The notes under the pieces: model-generated | Databases searched by the model: none | Told to the model about the DNA's origin: nothing | What the model saw: the letters and a program-made list of their open reading frames with translations, nothing else | Shown here: positions 13,543 to 39,441 of the stretch, in pieces | Layout: the number at the start of each line of letters is the position of its first letter | How positions within the stretch are numbered: the first letter of the stretch is position 1 | Program-made: the position numbers and the translations under genes | IMG/VR virus record: IMGVR_UViG_3300048625_000299 | Location: 1-64,000 of that record | Length of the DNA stretch: 64,000 bases | Reading direction: 5' to 3' (one strand) | Source of the DNA: a virus

Positions 13543-14376
13543 ATGGCAAAATTAAAAGTAGCAGAGTTATTTTACAGCGTCCAAGGTGAAGGACGTTACA
13601 TGGGCGTGCCGTCCGTGTTCCTCCGCATCTTCGGATGCAACTTCAAATGTGAAGGCTTCGGATTGCCTAAAGGAGAATTGAGTAATGAAAGAAACCTCGT
13701 CGATGCTGACTCAATCAAGAACTACAAAGACCTCCCACTCGTTAGCACCGGATGTGACTCTTATGCGTCTTGGGATCCTCGTTTTAAGCATCTTAGTCCT
13801 GTTCTTAGCACCGATAGCGTTGCCGATGCTATTATGGATATGCTTCCGTTTGGTGAGTGGAAAGAAGAGCACTTAGTTATTACAGGCGGCGAGCCGTTGC
13901 TCGGCTGGCAACGTGCATACCCAGACCTGCTTAAGCATCCTAAGATGTTGGCATTGAAGGAACTGACATTCGAGACGAATGGTACACAAGAGCTGACCAA
14001 AGAGTTTGCGGACTTCTTAAAGGAGTCATTTGAGTATGACCAGCTGACATTCTCTGTTAGTCCTAAGCTCAGCGTCAGTGGCGAGAAATGGGAAGAGGCG
14101 ATCTGCCCTCAAATCGTCGCTGAGTACAACAAGATCGGATACACATACTTGAAGTTCGTGGTCGCATCTGAGGAAGATGTCCAAGAAGCTGTTAAGGCTA
14201 CTGCAGAATATCGTGCAGCTGGTTTTGATGGGCCGGTGTATTTGATGCCGGTTGGTGGTGTAGAGAGCGTGTACACCATGAACGCTAAAAACGTAGCAAT
14301 CGCTGCTATGAATCTAGGTTACCGCTACAGCGATCGTTTGCAGGTACCTCTTTTTAAGAATGAGTGGGGCACATGA
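13543..14376 (+). CDS. queE: 7-carboxy-7-deazaguanine synthase QueE
   Basis: Radical-SAM enzyme converting 6-carboxytetrahydropterin to 7-carboxy-7-deazaguanine. Begins with YSVQGEGRYMGVPSVFLR, then GCNFKC supplies two cluster cysteines (near residues 30 and 34). The canonical third cysteine, normally three residues on, is displaced; a candidate is the Cys in TGCDSYASWDP near residue 69, a variant I know from other phage and bacterial QueE proteins. 277 residues. Overlaps the next gene by 4 bases (ATGA). Confidence 0.9.
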   Translation: MAKLKVAELFYSVQGEGRYMGVPSVFLRIFGCNFKCEGFGLPKGELSNERNLVDADSIKNYKDLPLVSTGCDSYASWDPRFKHLSPVLSTDSVADAIMDMLPFGEWKEEHLVITGGEPLLGWQRAYPDLLKHPKMLALKELTFETNGTQELTKEFADFLKESFEYDQLTFSVSPKLSVSGEKWEEAICPQIVAEYNKIGYTYLKFVVASEEDVQEAVKATAEYRAAGFDGPVYLMPVGGVESVYTMNAKNVAIAAMNLGYRYSDRLQVPLFKNEWGT

Positions 14377-14825
14377 TCAATTACTCTAATACAGAATTTG
14401 TAGATGACATCGACAAACTAACACACCAGATCATTGGGTCTGGTAAGCATTACGATTACATCGTTGGCGTGGTTCGTGGAGGAGCGATCCCAGCAGTATG
14501 CCTTTCGCATAGATTAGGTCTCCCGATGAAATGTGTGTCGTGGTCAACATTTCATGGAGATCAGATGCGAGAGTCTGCATGGGACATTGCAGAAGACATC
14601 CATGACGGCAAGAAGGTACTTTTAGTAGACGACATCCTCGACTCTGGACGAACGATCAAAGAATTGTTTGAAGATTGGGATGTGCAAAAGGAACAAGTTG
14701 ATGTTGCAGTGTTGATCTATAACACCGATCAGTCTATAGTACCAGAATACTATGGCAGAAAAGTAAACAAAGGTGTCGATCCGAGTTGGATCACCTTTTG
14801 GTGGGAAACAGAGGATGAGGAATAA
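14373..14825 (+). CDS. Purine phosphoribosyltransferase, Gpt-like
   Basis: 150 residues. PRPP-binding motif VLLVDDILDSGRT near residue 85, upstream VVRGGAIPA loop and a C-terminal aromatic-rich WITFWWE that resembles the end of xanthine-guanine phosphoribosyltransferase. It sits between queE and queD. One idea is that it salvages guanine released when DpdA swaps deazaguanine into DNA; this is inference from context. Start chosen at 14373 because it overlaps the queE stop; GTG at 14364 is an alternative. Confidence 0.8.
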   Translation: MINYSNTEFVDDIDKLTHQIIGSGKHYDYIVGVVRGGAIPAVCLSHRLGLPMKCVSWSTFHGDQMRESAWDIAEDIHDGKKVLLVDDILDSGRTIKELFEDWDVQKEQVDVAVLIYNTDQSIVPEYYGRKVNKGVDPSWITFWWETEDEE

Positions 14826-14827
14826 TA

Positions 14828-15331
14828 ATGAGTAAACCAGTCGTACAGTACAAATATACAAGTACTAAAGAGTATCATAATGCGTTTCCGGTTGCATACC
14901 GCCAATGGCGTGCCGATTCGCATTGCAACTTGATTCATGGCTATGCATTCAGCATGAAGTTCTATTTTGGGACAGATGACTTGGATGTTCGCAACTGGGC
15001 AGCAGACTATGGCGGTCTGAAGGAATTGAAAAACGTGCTCGAAAGTCAATTTGACCACACGCTCCTTGTAGCAGAAGATGATCCAGAGCTTGATTTCTAT
15101 AAAGAGATGGAAAAGCGTAAGTTGGCTAAACTTACCATCCTACCAAAGCTAGGGTGTGAAGGCCTTTCGGATCAATTATACAAGTACGTGAATGGTGTAT
15201 ACATTCCAGATATGTGGGGTCCTGCAGAAGCAGCTCGTCTGTGGTGTTACAGAGTTGAAGTACGTGAGACTCAAAGTAACATGGCCTTCCGTGAAGGACA
15301 TCGTGAATGGAATGAGGACTTGTTCGCATAA
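14828..15331 (+). CDS. queD: 6-carboxytetrahydropterin synthase QueD-like
   Basis: 167 residues of the PTPS/QueD T-fold family. Recognisable blocks: FPVAYRQWRADSHCNLIHGY (residues 20-39), a central FDHTLL and a C-terminal VEVRET with the substrate-binding Glu. Compared with typical QueD (FxxAHxL...C...HGH), two zinc-ligand positions read Tyr instead of His, while His37 is kept and another His (32) precedes the Cys. Converts dihydroneopterin triphosphate in the deazaguanine route. Confidence 0.85.
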   Translation: MSKPVVQYKYTSTKEYHNAFPVAYRQWRADSHCNLIHGYAFSMKFYFGTDDLDVRNWAADYGGLKELKNVLESQFDHTLLVAEDDPELDFYKEMEKRKLAKLTILPKLGCEGLSDQLYKYVNGVYIPDMWGPAEAARLWCYRVEVRETQSNMAFREGHREWNEDLFA

Positions 15332-25367: not shown

Positions 25368-25373
25368 GTTTTA

Positions 25374-25443
25374 GAATAGTTACAGCAACACACAAAGAAC
25401 ACCAAACTTTTAATTTGACATGTTCGTCAACGCTATTCTGTTA
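25374..25443 (+). repeat. Box-pair element R1 (5' box ... 3' box)
   Basis: Stem GAATAG/CTATTC; CAGCA three bases after the 5' strand and TGTTA right after the 3' strand. Loop of about 50 bases with a TTGAC/GTCAA hairpin and no tRNA arms. Follows the tRNA CCA by six bases. Same design as R2-R13. Confidence 0.6.
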
Positions 25444-25687: not shown

Positions 25688-25693
25688 GTTTTA

Positions 25694-25814
25694 GGATACT
25701 TGCAGCAATGACTTAAAAGTCAGTAGGTTCGATTCCTACATTTGGAGCTTTCCAAATCCGTCGTAAGGTACGACAAACGATTGAAACTCGTTCAACTAAA
25801 AAGGTATCCTGTTG
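25694..25814 (+). tRNA. Circularly permuted tRNA-Phe(GAA) candidate, element R2
   Basis: Order of parts: box stem GGATAC and CAGCA; T-arm GTAGG/CCTAC with loop TTCGATT (25723-25739); 3' acceptor strand ATTTGGA (25740); four-base loop; 5' acceptor strand TCCAAAT (25751), 7 perfect pairs; D-arm GTCG/CGAC with GG loop; anticodon arm AACGA/TCGTT with loop TTGAAAC; closing box GTATCC then TGTTG. A normal-order tRNA-Phe exists at 30250. No CCA is encoded. Maturation would need a join in the variable loop. Confidence 0.7.
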
Positions 25815-26413: not shown

Positions 26414-26419
26414 AATTTA

Positions 26420-26482
26420 GGATCCTTTCAGCAAAACTTATACTTTCACTTTTGGCTGTGAAAAGCAAAGCGGATCCTGTTG
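26420..26482 (+). repeat. Box-pair element R4
   Basis: Stem GGATCC/GGATCC, CAGCA after 3 bases, TGTTG after the 3' strand; loop of about 30 bases contains TTTCAC/GTGAAA hairpin. Follows a CCA by six bases and ends six bases before tRNA-Leu. Confidence 0.6.
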
Positions 26483-27763: not shown

Positions 27764-27769
27764 GTTTTA

Positions 27770-27830
27770 GGATAGTTACCGCAATCAAAAAGCTAACTAT
27801 GGTTGTCTAGCGACAAAAGCTATCCTGTTG
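27770..27830 (+). repeat. Box-pair element R5
   Basis: GGATAG/CTATCC stem, CCGCA (variant of CAGCA) and TGTTG; small loop with TTGTC/GACAA hairpin. Seven bases before tRNA-Tyr. Confidence 0.6.
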
Positions 27831-30325: not shown

Positions 30326-30338
30326 AGTTTGACCATTA

Positions 30339-30457
30339 GGTTCATTTCAGCAATCAAAATAATCTTTCTTAGAAAAAGAGGGTCTGGGTTCGAATCCCAG
30401 CGCGGAGTTGGTCTTCCGTGTGGTGTAAGGGTAGCACGAAAAAAGTTGAACCTGTTA
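30339..30457 (+). tRNA. Circularly permuted tRNA, anticodon UAG, element R7
   Basis: Order: box stem GGTTCA and CAGCA; anticodon arm TCTTT/AAAGA with loop CTTAGAA (30363-30379); T-arm CTGGG/CCCAG; 3' acceptor CGCGGAG (30401); six-base loop; 5' acceptor TTCCGTG (30414), 7 pairs; D-arm GTGT/GCAC with GG loop; nt 26; A-rich stretch; TGAACC then TGTTA. Break point lies between nt 26 and 27, exactly where the insertion of tRNA-Asp 30764 sits. Anticodon reads leucine CUA but the variable loop is short. Confidence 0.72.
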
Positions 30458-30547: not shown

Positions 30548-30556
30548 AAAGTTTTA

Positions 30557-30657
30557 GGATAGTTACAGCAAAACAAAACGCTTGTCATTGGTTGACAATT
30601 TGCCTTCTAAGCAAACCTAGCAGGTTCAATTCCTGCAGCAAAACAACTATCCTGTTG
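30557..30657 (+). tRNA. tRNA-Arg(UCU)-like body in box-pair element R8
   Basis: GGATAGTT/AACTATCC closes the unit; CAGCA and TGTTG present. Inside, in normal order: D-arm TTGTC/GACAA with GG, anticodon arm TTTGC/GCAAA with loop CTTCTAA, T-arm GCAGG/CCTGC. The acceptor is only GCT/AGC plus an internal loop up to the box stem, so it is not a normal tRNA. CAGCAAAAC occurs on both sides. Confidence 0.5.
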
Positions 30658-30763: not shown

Positions 30764-30876
30764 GTCGCGATGGTGTAATGGTAGCACGCTATAAAAGGTG
30801 ATCCTGATTAGGATACGTGCAGCATACATTTTCCACTGTCAATGGAGATGCCCAGGTTCGATTCCTGGTCGCGACG
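30764..30876 (+). tRNA. tRNA-Asp(GUC) with 42-nt insertion
   Basis: GTCGCGA/TCGCGAC perfect acceptor, D-arm GTGT/GCAC, anticodon loop CTGTCAA, T-arm CCAGG/CCTGG, G73 followed by CCT instead of CCA. Bases 30789-30830 are extra, placed between nt 26 and 27: A-rich, then ATCCT-GATT-AGGAT hairpin, then CAGCA. If CT upstream is joined to CCA downstream the anticodon stem becomes CTCCA/TGGAG, five Watson-Crick pairs. Confidence 0.85.
30789..30830 (+). repeat. Box-pair element R9, linear intron-like insertion
   Basis: Linear version of the box pair inside tRNA-Asp: AAAAGG box, stem ATCCT/AGGAT, CAGCA box. Shows what the permuted versions would look like unpermuted. Confidence 0.65.
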
Positions 30877-30885
30877 CCTCTTTTA

Positions 30886-30990
30886 GGATGAATGCAGCAA
30901 CATAAAAACTCTTCCACCATTCAGGGAGGCCGGCCCGCAGGGGGCATGTCGTTGGGTTCGAGTCCCGGTCTTAGACACATCATCCTGTTA
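30886..30990 (+). repeat. Box-pair element R10 with T-arm
   Basis: GGATGA/TCATCC, CAGCA, TGTTA. Contains a T-arm-like TTGGG TTCGAGT CCCGG and GC-rich arms, but no acceptor or clear anticodon. Confidence 0.5.
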
Positions 30991-37933: not shown

Positions 37934-37989
37934 GGTTAAGTTCCGCACAACAATTTCTATTCATAAAAGAGAAAAAGTTTAACCTGTTG
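37934..37989 (+). repeat. Box-pair element R13 in the Ro60-like gene leader
   Basis: GGTTAA/TTAACC, CCGCA and TGTTG; 19 bases before the ATG at 38008, so it could also act on translation. Confidence 0.55.
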
Positions 37990-38007: not shown

Positions 38008-39441
38008 ATGTCAACATTCGCTGAAGCTGTAGTAAACCAAGAAGCCCGTACCACGAATGGTATGGTGGCACGCAAGTCCACTGCAAATGCGTGCGTCGAT
38101 TTATTCTTCAAGATCGGTGCTTCCCGCGGTAAGGACATCACGAAGGATTTCGTGGCCGCATACGCTGAGAACAAAGATGTCGCGTTGCGCATCGCTCAAT
38201 GGGTCCGTGATGCTCGTGGTGGGGCAGGCGAACGTGATCTGTACCGCCAGATCTTGAAGTATCTCGAAAAGCACGATAAGGACGCTGCTGCAGCTTTGCT
38301 GTTGAAGACTCCTGAAATCGGTCGCTGGGATGATATCTTCGTGTTCGAAGACAAAGATTTGAAGGCTAAGGCTTTCACGATGTTGGGAGATGCTCTCCGC
38401 GTACGTAACGGTCTCGCTGCAAAGTGGACGCCACGTCAAGGTAAGCTCGCTGCTGAAATCCGGTCATTCTTCGGAATGTCCCCAAAGTTCTATCGTAAGT
38501 CGTTGGTTGAATTGACCAACGTTGTGGAACAACAAATGTGTGCAAAAGAATGGGATGCAATCAACTTCTCGCATGTGCCGTCCGTGGCTGCTGCTCGTTA
38601 CAAGAAAGCATTCAGCCGTAACACACAAGAGTATACCAAGTACGTTGCTGAGTTGATGAAGGATCCAAAGGATCGTAAAGTCAACGTCAAGATCAACGCT
38701 GGCGCTGTGTTTCCATATGATGTGTTGAAGGGCGTTATCGGTGCATACCGCAACAACTACAGCGCAACTGAACTCGGAGCATTGCAAGCTCAATGGGATG
38801 CGATGGAAAACTTCATCGGCGACGCAAACGTCTTGCCGTTGGTAGACGTGTCTGGTTCGATGTCATGTCGTGCTGGTGGTTCTGCTTCCCAAAGCACGAC
38901 TACTTGTATGGATGTCGCAGTGTCGCTAGGTTTGTACCTTGCTGACAAGAACAAGGGTAAGTTCAAGGATACGTTCTTGACATTCTCAGGTTCACCAGAG
39001 TTGCTGAACCTGAAGGGCAACATTGTTCAGAAAGTCCAACAAATGTCATCCTCTAACTGGGGTATGAACACAGACTTGGTGAAGGCGATGGATAAGATCT
39101 TGAGCACAGCCAAGAACGGCAATGTTCCTCAAGAAGAAATGCCAGACATGCTGTTGATTCTTTCAGACATGCAATTCGATCAATGCGCTCGTTTCGACGA
39201 CTCTGCAATGAAGATGATTGCACGTAAGTTCGAAGAAGCAGGCTACGAATTGCCAAAGATCGTATTCTGGAACCTGAACGCTGCGGACAATGTCCCAGTT
39301 AAGTACGACACTCGTGGTGTTGCTTTGGTGTCTGGCTTCTCGCCAGCTATCATGACGGCAGTACTCGGTGGCGATGCTGATAAGTTCACACCAGAAGCTA
39401 TGATGCTGAAGGCAGTGATGCTTCCACGTTACGATCTGTAA
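38008..39441 (+). CDS. Ro60-like protein (DUF2828: TROVE-type repeats plus vWA)
   Basis: 477 residues. N-terminal two thirds helical with AQWVRDARGGAGERDLYRQ near residue 65 and GRWDDIFVFED near 107, the signature of DUF2828/TROVE-related ring proteins; C-terminal von Willebrand A domain with MIDAS start PLVDVSGSMS near residue 277 and SDMQF later. Ro60 proteins bind misfolded RNAs and Y RNAs. The position beside a tRNA array full of unusual RNAs suggests the same role. AAGGAG site; start 38008. Confidence 0.88.
   Translation: MSTFAEAVVNQEARTTNGMVARKSTANACVDLFFKIGASRGKDITKDFVAAYAENKDVALRIAQWVRDARGGAGERDLYRQILKYLEKHDKDAAAALLLKTPEIGRWDDIFVFEDKDLKAKAFTMLGDALRVRNGLAAKWTPRQGKLAAEIRSFFGMSPKFYRKSLVELTNVVEQQMCAKEWDAINFSHVPSVAAARYKKAFSRNTQEYTKYVAELMKDPKDRKVNVKINAGAVFPYDVLKGVIGAYRNNYSATELGALQAQWDAMENFIGDANVLPLVDVSGSMSCRAGGSASQSTTTCMDVAVSLGLYLADKNKGKFKDTFLTFSGSPELLNLKGNIVQKVQQMSSSNWGMNTDLVKAMDKILSTAKNGNVPQEEMPDMLLILSDMQFDQCARFDDSAMKMIARKFEEAGYELPKIVFWNLNAADNVPVKYDTRGVALVSGFSPAIMTAVLGGDADKFTPEAMMLKAVMLPRYDL

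Follow-up and report, generated by a model that had tools for sequence, protein, structure and literature searches.

What does a 42-nucleotide (nt) insert made of two recurring sequence boxes do inside a phage transfer RNA (tRNA) gene? The question is raised by a tRNA-Asp gene in a 64,000-nt stretch of viral DNA (IMG/VR record IMGVR_UViG_3300048625_000299, positions 1 to 64,000; the window), where the boxes are seen by eye to recur across a cluster of 40 tRNAs. An earlier reading of the DNA letters (the sequence-only reading) had taken the insert to be excised from the mature tRNA. We consider a different explanation reasonably probable, namely that the insert serves as clamp in a phage family of ribonucleoprotein particles (RNPs) resembling Ro60 and its Y RNAs, which would present tRNA or anticodon mimics, probably as decoys, and would involve no splicing.

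The interrupted tRNA-Asp and its RNA element

The interrupted gene, its insert and a neighboring permuted tRNA with the same boxes are arranged as follows.

30764-30876, plus strand: tRNA-Asp-like RNA, anticodon GUC, whose anticodon stem is interrupted in its 5' strand by an element; GCCU end, no CCA
30791-30832, plus strand: the 42-nt insert, AUAAAAGGUG-AUCCU-GAUU-AGGAU-ACGUG-CAGCA-UACAUUUU, the linear (box1-box2) form, with its junction between CU and CCA
30338-30454, plus strand: permuted tRNA-like element with stem AGGUUCA/UGAACCU, CAGCAA, an intact anticodon arm (loop CUUAGAA), T arm, acceptor capped by UUGGUC and D arm

The insert is real. The gene runs GUCGCGA-UG-GUGU-AAUGGUA-GCAC-G-CU, then AUAAAAGGUGAUCCUGAUUAGGAUACGUGCAGCAUACAUUUU, then CCA-CUGUCAA-UGGAG, followed by a normal T arm and acceptor, and the Rfam tRNA model RF00005 spans 30764-30876 including the insert with a score of 50.3 bits. 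Removal of the insert leaves a tRNA-Asp with all standard arms: acceptor GUCGCGA/UCGCGAC, D stem GUGU/GCAC, loop CUGUCAA (anticodon GUC) and T arm CCAGG/CCUGG. The junction can be placed in two ways (30789-30830 or 30791-30832, 42 nt in either case), and the one between CU and CCA yields the anticodon stem CUCCA/UGGAG with five Watson-Crick pairs, as the sequence-only reading had stated. The box stem of this copy, AUCCU/AGGAU, has 5 base pairs (bp) and is shorter than the 7 bp of permuted copies. The predicted optimum fold of the uncut RNA keeps the acceptor, T and anticodon arms and pairs the insert differently. A close homologue of the insert is found in a related locus (L192, at 5208).

The same boxes surround the permuted tRNA at 30338-30454 in rotated order. 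The insert and the permuted tRNA are thus explained by a single RNA element in two rotations of one shape, and splicing is therefore unnecessary to relate them. The further claim that both genes are broken at exactly the same site holds for the permuted copy, which is opened at 26/27, and depends for the Asp copy on the choice of junction, since the insert lies at 28/29 when the junction is set between CU and CCA. Among relatives 26/27 is the most common break site, followed by 27-32 or a position after 43. The insert does not occupy the 37/38 position of nuclear and archaeal introns.

The two boxes represent the two strands of one RNA element in which a 7-bp stem, three variable bases (N3) and CAGCAA precede a variable content that is closed by an A-rich strand (AAAA). 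The consensus is UUU-AGGAUNN-NUN-CAGCAA ... AAAA-NNNAUCCU-GUU. The window contains ten permuted-order copies in addition to the Asp copy, and hundreds are present in phage contigs. Besides the element at 30338-30454, the permuted-order copies are:

25373-25440, plus strand: short element, AGAAUAG/CUAUUCU around CAAA-CUUUUAA-UUUG (Lys-type anticodon loop)
25693-25811, plus strand: permuted tRNA-like element with stem AGGAUAC/GUAUCCU, an extra hairpin, T arm, acceptor capped by GCUU, D arm and anticodon arm (loop UUGAAAC)
26419-26479, plus strand: short element, AGGAUCC/GGAUCCU
27769-27827, plus strand: short element, AGGAUAG/CUAUCCU, with the CCGCAA variant
30556-30654, plus strand: element with an Arg(UCU)-type anticodon arm and T arm; acceptor and D arm not recognised
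30885-30987, plus strand: element AGGAUGA/UCAUCCU, content about 80 nt with no clear fold
33099-33298, plus strand: element AGGAUCC/GGAUCCU with permuted tRNA-like content, whose 3' half starts alike in L006, L069 and L076
37690-37924, plus strand: element AGAGUAG/CUACUCU; its content, about 200 nt, is not a tRNA
37933-37986, plus strand: short element AGGUUAA/UUAACCU, located within a Ro60-like gene's 5' leader

Predicted folds at 25690 and 30335 place capped acceptor, T, D and anticodon hairpins within the clamp, and the fold of the 25693-25811 element agrees with this layout (z -4.3). The minimum-energy fold of the 25373-25440 element lacks the Lys-type hairpin and gives no clear structure.

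The element is well supported as a conserved RNA structure. Viral contigs contain at least 119 stretches that fit the box2 pattern, and a reverse-complementary strand lies within 600 nt in 152 of 165 box2 matches. With only the AGGAT and AUCCUGUU cores fixed in anchored sequences and the two variable stem bases scored, these bases were complementary in 147 of 153 pairs (9.6 expected by chance), and in newly fetched contigs in 71 of 71. A relaxed scan recovered 551 elements compared with 36 in a Markov control, with stems including AGGUUNN, AGAAUNN and AGAGUNN. C[ACU]GCA is kept in about 95% of 133 elements that fall off the original pattern, mostly in loci that had been fetched with that pattern. 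MAFFT misaligned the variable bases and contents of the short class, where RNAalifold recovered five stem pairs only. A pseudoknot between CAGCA and UGUUG, suggested by eye, was rejected as the partner varies without compensation. The strong conservation of the ends does not fit a merely tolerated hairpin, the outcome that the sequence-only reading had named as refuting it. Loci were first gathered by motif, and linkage and module statistics consequently describe motif-bearing phages; a set of phages chosen by protein and the newly fetched contigs provide a partial control.

No Rfam model recognises the element, either in the window or in the collected element sequences, and this includes models of group I introns, Theta or other hepatitis delta virus (HDV)-like ribozymes and further ribozymes. 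A strict-pattern scan of 84,980 bacterial and archaeal genomes gave 23 matches, of which six have complementary bases and just one is convincing, on a contig of a metagenome-assembled genome that also bears a Ro60-like gene. This scarcity indicates that the element is essentially viral. It is undescribed in the literature searched, a search thin in subscription papers and preprints.

Contents of the elements

Content lengths cluster near 40-60, 80-120 and 150-250 nt. A permuted tRNA, parsed as a T arm, an acceptor pairing of at least 6/7 and a D arm, was found in 53 of 226 longer contents and in none of 226 shuffles. In 49 of the 53 no more than 9 nt connect the two acceptor strands (loops of 2-9 nt such as GAAA, GCUU, UUCAU and UUGGUC), and CCA is present in five compared with 1990 of 2082 ordinary tRNAs (Fisher p ~1e-54). 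As a consequence of these capped, CCA-less acceptors, splicing could not make a tRNA from most of the permuted copies, and they are unlikely to give rise to a charged tRNA. An anticodon arm could be parsed in 39 of the 53, with U33 present in 33.

Most elements hold a hairpin only and no tRNA. Seven-nt apical loops are found in 109 of 231 short contents (25.6 in shuffles), and CUNNNAA loops, mostly on stems of about five pairs, in 61 (0.6 in shuffles), a result that was replicated in new loci (33 of 98, compared with 0.5). The anticodons most often displayed by short elements are Lys UUU (19) and Thr UGU (11).

Several further arrangements were observed. The non-tRNA content of the 37690-37924 element belongs to a conserved class of about 200-240 nt with relatives in L006 (3969), L014 (8827) and L142 (6859). 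At 35792-36090 two more permuted tRNA-like arrangements lacking CAGCAA boxes run in the order T arm, acceptor strand, 27-nt capping hairpin, complementary acceptor strand and D arm. The permuted tRNA at 30338 is part of a family with an upstream UUUGACC.UUAGGUUC motif (also in L007, L018, L022, L033, L069, L074, L084, L104, L108, L167 and L192) in which the anticodon differs by phage (UAG, GAA, ACG, GGA, GUA, GCA, AUG) on one conserved tRNA body, a pattern resembling diversifying change of the anticodon.

In IMG/VR and this window, 11 linear tRNAs are believably interrupted by the element, and additional linear copies are found in phage KVP40 (one) and Cronobacter phage S13 (two). CCA is absent in six of the 11, including the Asp copy (Fisher p 3e-6). 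In L140 and L179 the element takes the place of the anticodon arm and no such arm is present. Public annotations contain over-long tRNAs with the element inside, namely tRNA-Pseudo-3 of KVP40 (NC_005083.2, 179301-179416) and tRNA-Ser plus tRNA-OTHER of Cronobacter S13 (NC_028773.1, 132703-132945). Another over-long annotation is a 122-nt tRNA-Val in Aeh1 (NC_005260.1, 96384-96505).

Our first model was splicing, suggested by the resemblance of the permuted order to a permuted intron-exon design. In such a tiny intron or permuted-intron system the boxes would be intron ends, linear copies would be spliced, permuted copies back-spliced and the products sealed by phage RNA ligases. The model would account for the way the anticodon stem re-forms across the boxes in Asp and in many relatives, for the CCA kept by some linear copies and for the kinase, phosphoesterase and two RNA ligases encoded by the phage. 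We dropped it on the acceptor linkers, mostly 2-9-nt caps without CCA, and the two relatives without an anticodon arm. Element contents are moreover mostly not tRNAs, an intact tRNA-Asp(GUC) is present in the same phage at 25124-25200, no Rfam intron or ribozyme model matches, and no tRNA-splicing endonuclease (tRNA_int_endo, PF01974) was found in 19 element-bearing phage records. RtcB was rejected as a sealing enzyme, being absent in this phage and present in just 4 of 18. Removal or joining does not generally yield a functional tRNA; on paper it does so for Asp and some linear relatives. We therefore regard an intron system as quite improbable and the Asp insert as probably not an intron. 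The excision assumed by the sequence-only reading thus finds no support, given the capped acceptors, L140 and L179, the hairpin-only elements, the lack of PF01974 in those 19 records and the linkage to a Ro60-like gene described below, and that interpretation is upheld in part.

The Ro60-like protein and a candidate RNP

The last element of the window is directly followed by a protein-coding gene.

38008-39441, plus strand: Ro60-like protein, 477 amino acids, DUF2828/DUF7788, phrog_850 ('RNA-binding'), von Willebrand factor A (vWA) domain with the metal ion-dependent adhesion site (MIDAS) motif DVSGSM

An AlphaFold model of this protein (mean predicted local distance difference test score, pLDDT, of 81.9) was used for a Foldseek fold search. 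The eight top PDB matches are all Ro60, aligned over the full length (2i91, 1yvr, 1yvp and 9nfa among them), with E-values down to 1e-10 and a template modeling (TM) score of 0.63. The protein thus shows the HEAT ring and vWA fold with MIDAS that characterise Ro60/TROVE proteins, as seen in the full-length alignments to 2i91 and 1yvp and in DVSGSM. Matching by sequence only is weak in the PDB, and a sequence profile reaches TROVE weakly (E 0.26). Ro60/TROVE proteins have been noted in jumbo phages (PMC7765460, PMC7824862), and Ro60-like proteins are encoded in 682 cultured-phage records, where they are mostly annotated as hypothetical or RNA-binding.

Element and protein are linked. An element ends at most 90 nt upstream of the start codon in 71 of 79 Ro60-like genes in element loci (3.9% by chance), and the leader element was found again in 16 of 20 new loci. 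Of 21 long contigs obtained by searching for the element, 18 carry a Ro60-like gene, compared with none of five contigs with spurious pattern matches. Cultured phages chosen by protein that carry same-strand elements include BUCT-ZZ01, KVP40, DLP_6, S13, the Felix O1-like radambza, LeBron, CP30A, LP-125, ZJGS2 and BcoS-136; in this set N3-CAGCAA is constant and stems are lineage-specific (AGACCNN, AAGRCAC, TGGNCNC). A control stretch of T4 gave no element. The linkage to the Ro60-like gene suggests a protein-binding RNA module.

Two further explanations were weighed. The boxes might serve as RNA-processing punctuation, spacers that guide cleavage of a polycistronic tRNA transcript and whose modules are incidental. 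Elements do lie between tRNAs and a CCA occurs at most 14 nt upstream in 158 of 349, but the modules are far from random and the leader elements of Ro60-like genes are not explained, which makes this reading improbable. Alternatively, the boxes could act in DNA as recombination or mobility sites that shuffle tRNA pieces, permutation arising incidentally when circles insert. Such sites would be consistent with the arrays, the permuted gene order and inverted repeats that have private variable bases. However, matches in the protein-chosen phages lie almost exclusively on the strand of the Ro60-like gene (38 plus, 1 minus), conserved internal-loop bases and anticodon hairpins imply a function in RNA, and no linked recombinase was noticed, no systematic search having been made for one. 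We consider a DNA-level role very improbable.

In the RNP reading that we favor, the 7-bp stem with N3-CAGCAA on the 5' side and the A-rich AAAA strand on the 3' side would clamp a variable module, which may mimic an entire tRNA, its acceptor stem capped, or consist of just an anticodon stem-loop or some other hairpin. Synteny and analogy to known Ro60 RNPs suggest that the element is most likely the binding site of the adjacent Ro60-like protein, which would result in a Y-RNA-like RNP. In permuted copies, the majority, the RNA ends would lie at the clamp, while in Asp-type copies the clamp would form a closed hairpin and the RNA would end at the acceptor stem. We infer that the element RNAs are processed. 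During infection the RNPs would show anticodon loops or tRNA bodies to host enzymes with anticodon arms as binding or cleavage targets, probably acting as decoys or competitive inhibitors. A decoy role is suggested by the anticodon loops on display, by acceptors that cannot be used, by the position amid tRNAs, by an RNA-repair cassette elsewhere in the genome and by the overlap with targets of AriB: PARIS AriB mainly targets Lys UUU and Thr UGU (PMC12409363), and the displayed Lys UUU, Thr UGU and Asn GUU overlap its target set. For YrlA, too, competitive inhibition of an anticodon nuclease has been proposed as a possibility (PMC7790460). More tentatively, large tailed phages may share a Ro60-centred counter-defence in which RNA arrays with one clamp motif present anticodon or tRNA decoys against anticodon-cleaving defences such as PrrC and PARIS.

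A Ro60-like RNP could instead have a tethering or regulatory role and guide an exonuclease, RNA repair or tRNA modification enzymes. PNPase is tethered by a Y RNA in Deinococcus, and both DusA and TruB act on YrlA (PMC8394870). The rsr-yrlBA-rtcBA operon responds to anticodon-cleaved tRNAs (PMC7790460), and an RtcB-like gene is found near the Ro60-like gene in Listeria phage LP-125. Tethering alone does not account for the many different anticodon loops per phage, and we regard it as possible though rather unlikely.

Several observations weigh against a decoy-presenting RNP. The leader element is absent in 8 of the 79 Ro60-like genes, and phages Munch and Aeh1 encode the protein with no element within 5-6 kb. 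The Rfam YrlA model RF02553 (69 bits) does not match the elements; its only scores, 21-28 bits, fall at ordinary tRNAs or in their surroundings. The Salmonella nuclease leaves YrlA itself uncleaved (PMC7790460). A clear anticodon loop is lacking in roughly half of the short elements and some long contents are unexplained, and the Lys and Thr enrichment could partly stem from AU-rich sequence. CCA is kept in KVP40 Asn, both Cronobacter S13 copies, L014, L122, L140 and L160, and skipping the box restores a perfect anticodon stem in several linear copies, which leaves room for processing of some of them.

Phage Ro60-like proteins gain a sequence-scorable candidate RNA partner, in phages with hosts ranging from Vibrio (KVP40) and E. 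coli (Felix O1-like phages) to Mycobacterium, Listeria, Campylobacter and Bacillus. Odd 'pseudo' and 'other' tRNA annotations (KVP40 tRNA-Pseudo-3, Cronobacter S13) are accounted for by the element, and the role of phage Ro60 proteins and bacterial Y RNAs in tRNA attack becomes testable in laboratory phages.

The RNA-repair cassette lies outside the window at about 93.8-98.0 kb of the same genome (G000; L230 9818-14019). It encodes an RNA ligase (PF09414) with a PHA02142 OB fold, a metallophosphoesterase, an AAA_33 kinase and a T4 Rnl1-like ligase, and adjoins a nicotinate/nicotinamide phosphoribosyltransferase gene. Within the window, a release-factor-like gene (31935-32609; GGQ motif, RF-1 domain) carries an in-frame UGA at codon 36 that may be an autoregulatory or recoding site. 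A QueE-like radical SAM gene with neighbors of uncertain role (13543-15331) possibly belongs to a 7-deazaguanine pathway.

Comparison with known systems

Like phage group I tRNA introns, the Asp insert lies within a phage tRNA gene, but it is only 42 nt long, has no catalytic core or Rfam match and interrupts the anticodon stem rather than the loop. Theta (HDV-like) ribozymes are also small structured RNAs in phage tRNA arrays (PMC10879173); the phage elements match no HDV-like Rfam model and differ in their contents and their Ro60 link. The placement of the 3' half ahead of the 5' half is shared with permuted tRNA genes of Cyanidioschyzon and archaea, from which the phage copies differ by having no CCA or processable linker, a capped acceptor and no splicing endonuclease found. 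The flanks of those permuted tRNA genes form a bulge-helix-bulge, and in the phage elements the 7-bp clamp stands in its place. Nuclease-resistant phage tRNAs, such as those of T5 that counter PARIS (PMC12409363), resemble the elements in bringing Lys UUU, Thr UGU and Asn GUU into phage RNAs, but they are translating tRNAs whereas the elements mostly lack a usable acceptor end.

The remaining comparison is with YrlA and other bacterial Y RNAs bound by Rsr (Ro60). Unlike YrlA, the phage elements are not matched by RF02553, carry N3-CAGCAA in the basal stem (absent from the Rfam consensus), occur many times per genome, show anticodon arms or bare loops and include linear copies with free acceptor ends; the permuted tRNA-like module with capped acceptor is seen in the 53 copies described above and not in short-hairpin copies. 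In YrlA the basal stem is the Ro60 tether and the module a tRNA mimic that is modified by tRNA enzymes (PMC8394870), and the Rfam YrlA consensus follows the order basal stem, T arm, capped acceptor and D arm, a permuted order as in the phage elements. Both systems have RNA ends paired in a basal stem, a permuted tRNA module, a Ro60-family protein encoded nearby and a link to damaged tRNA.
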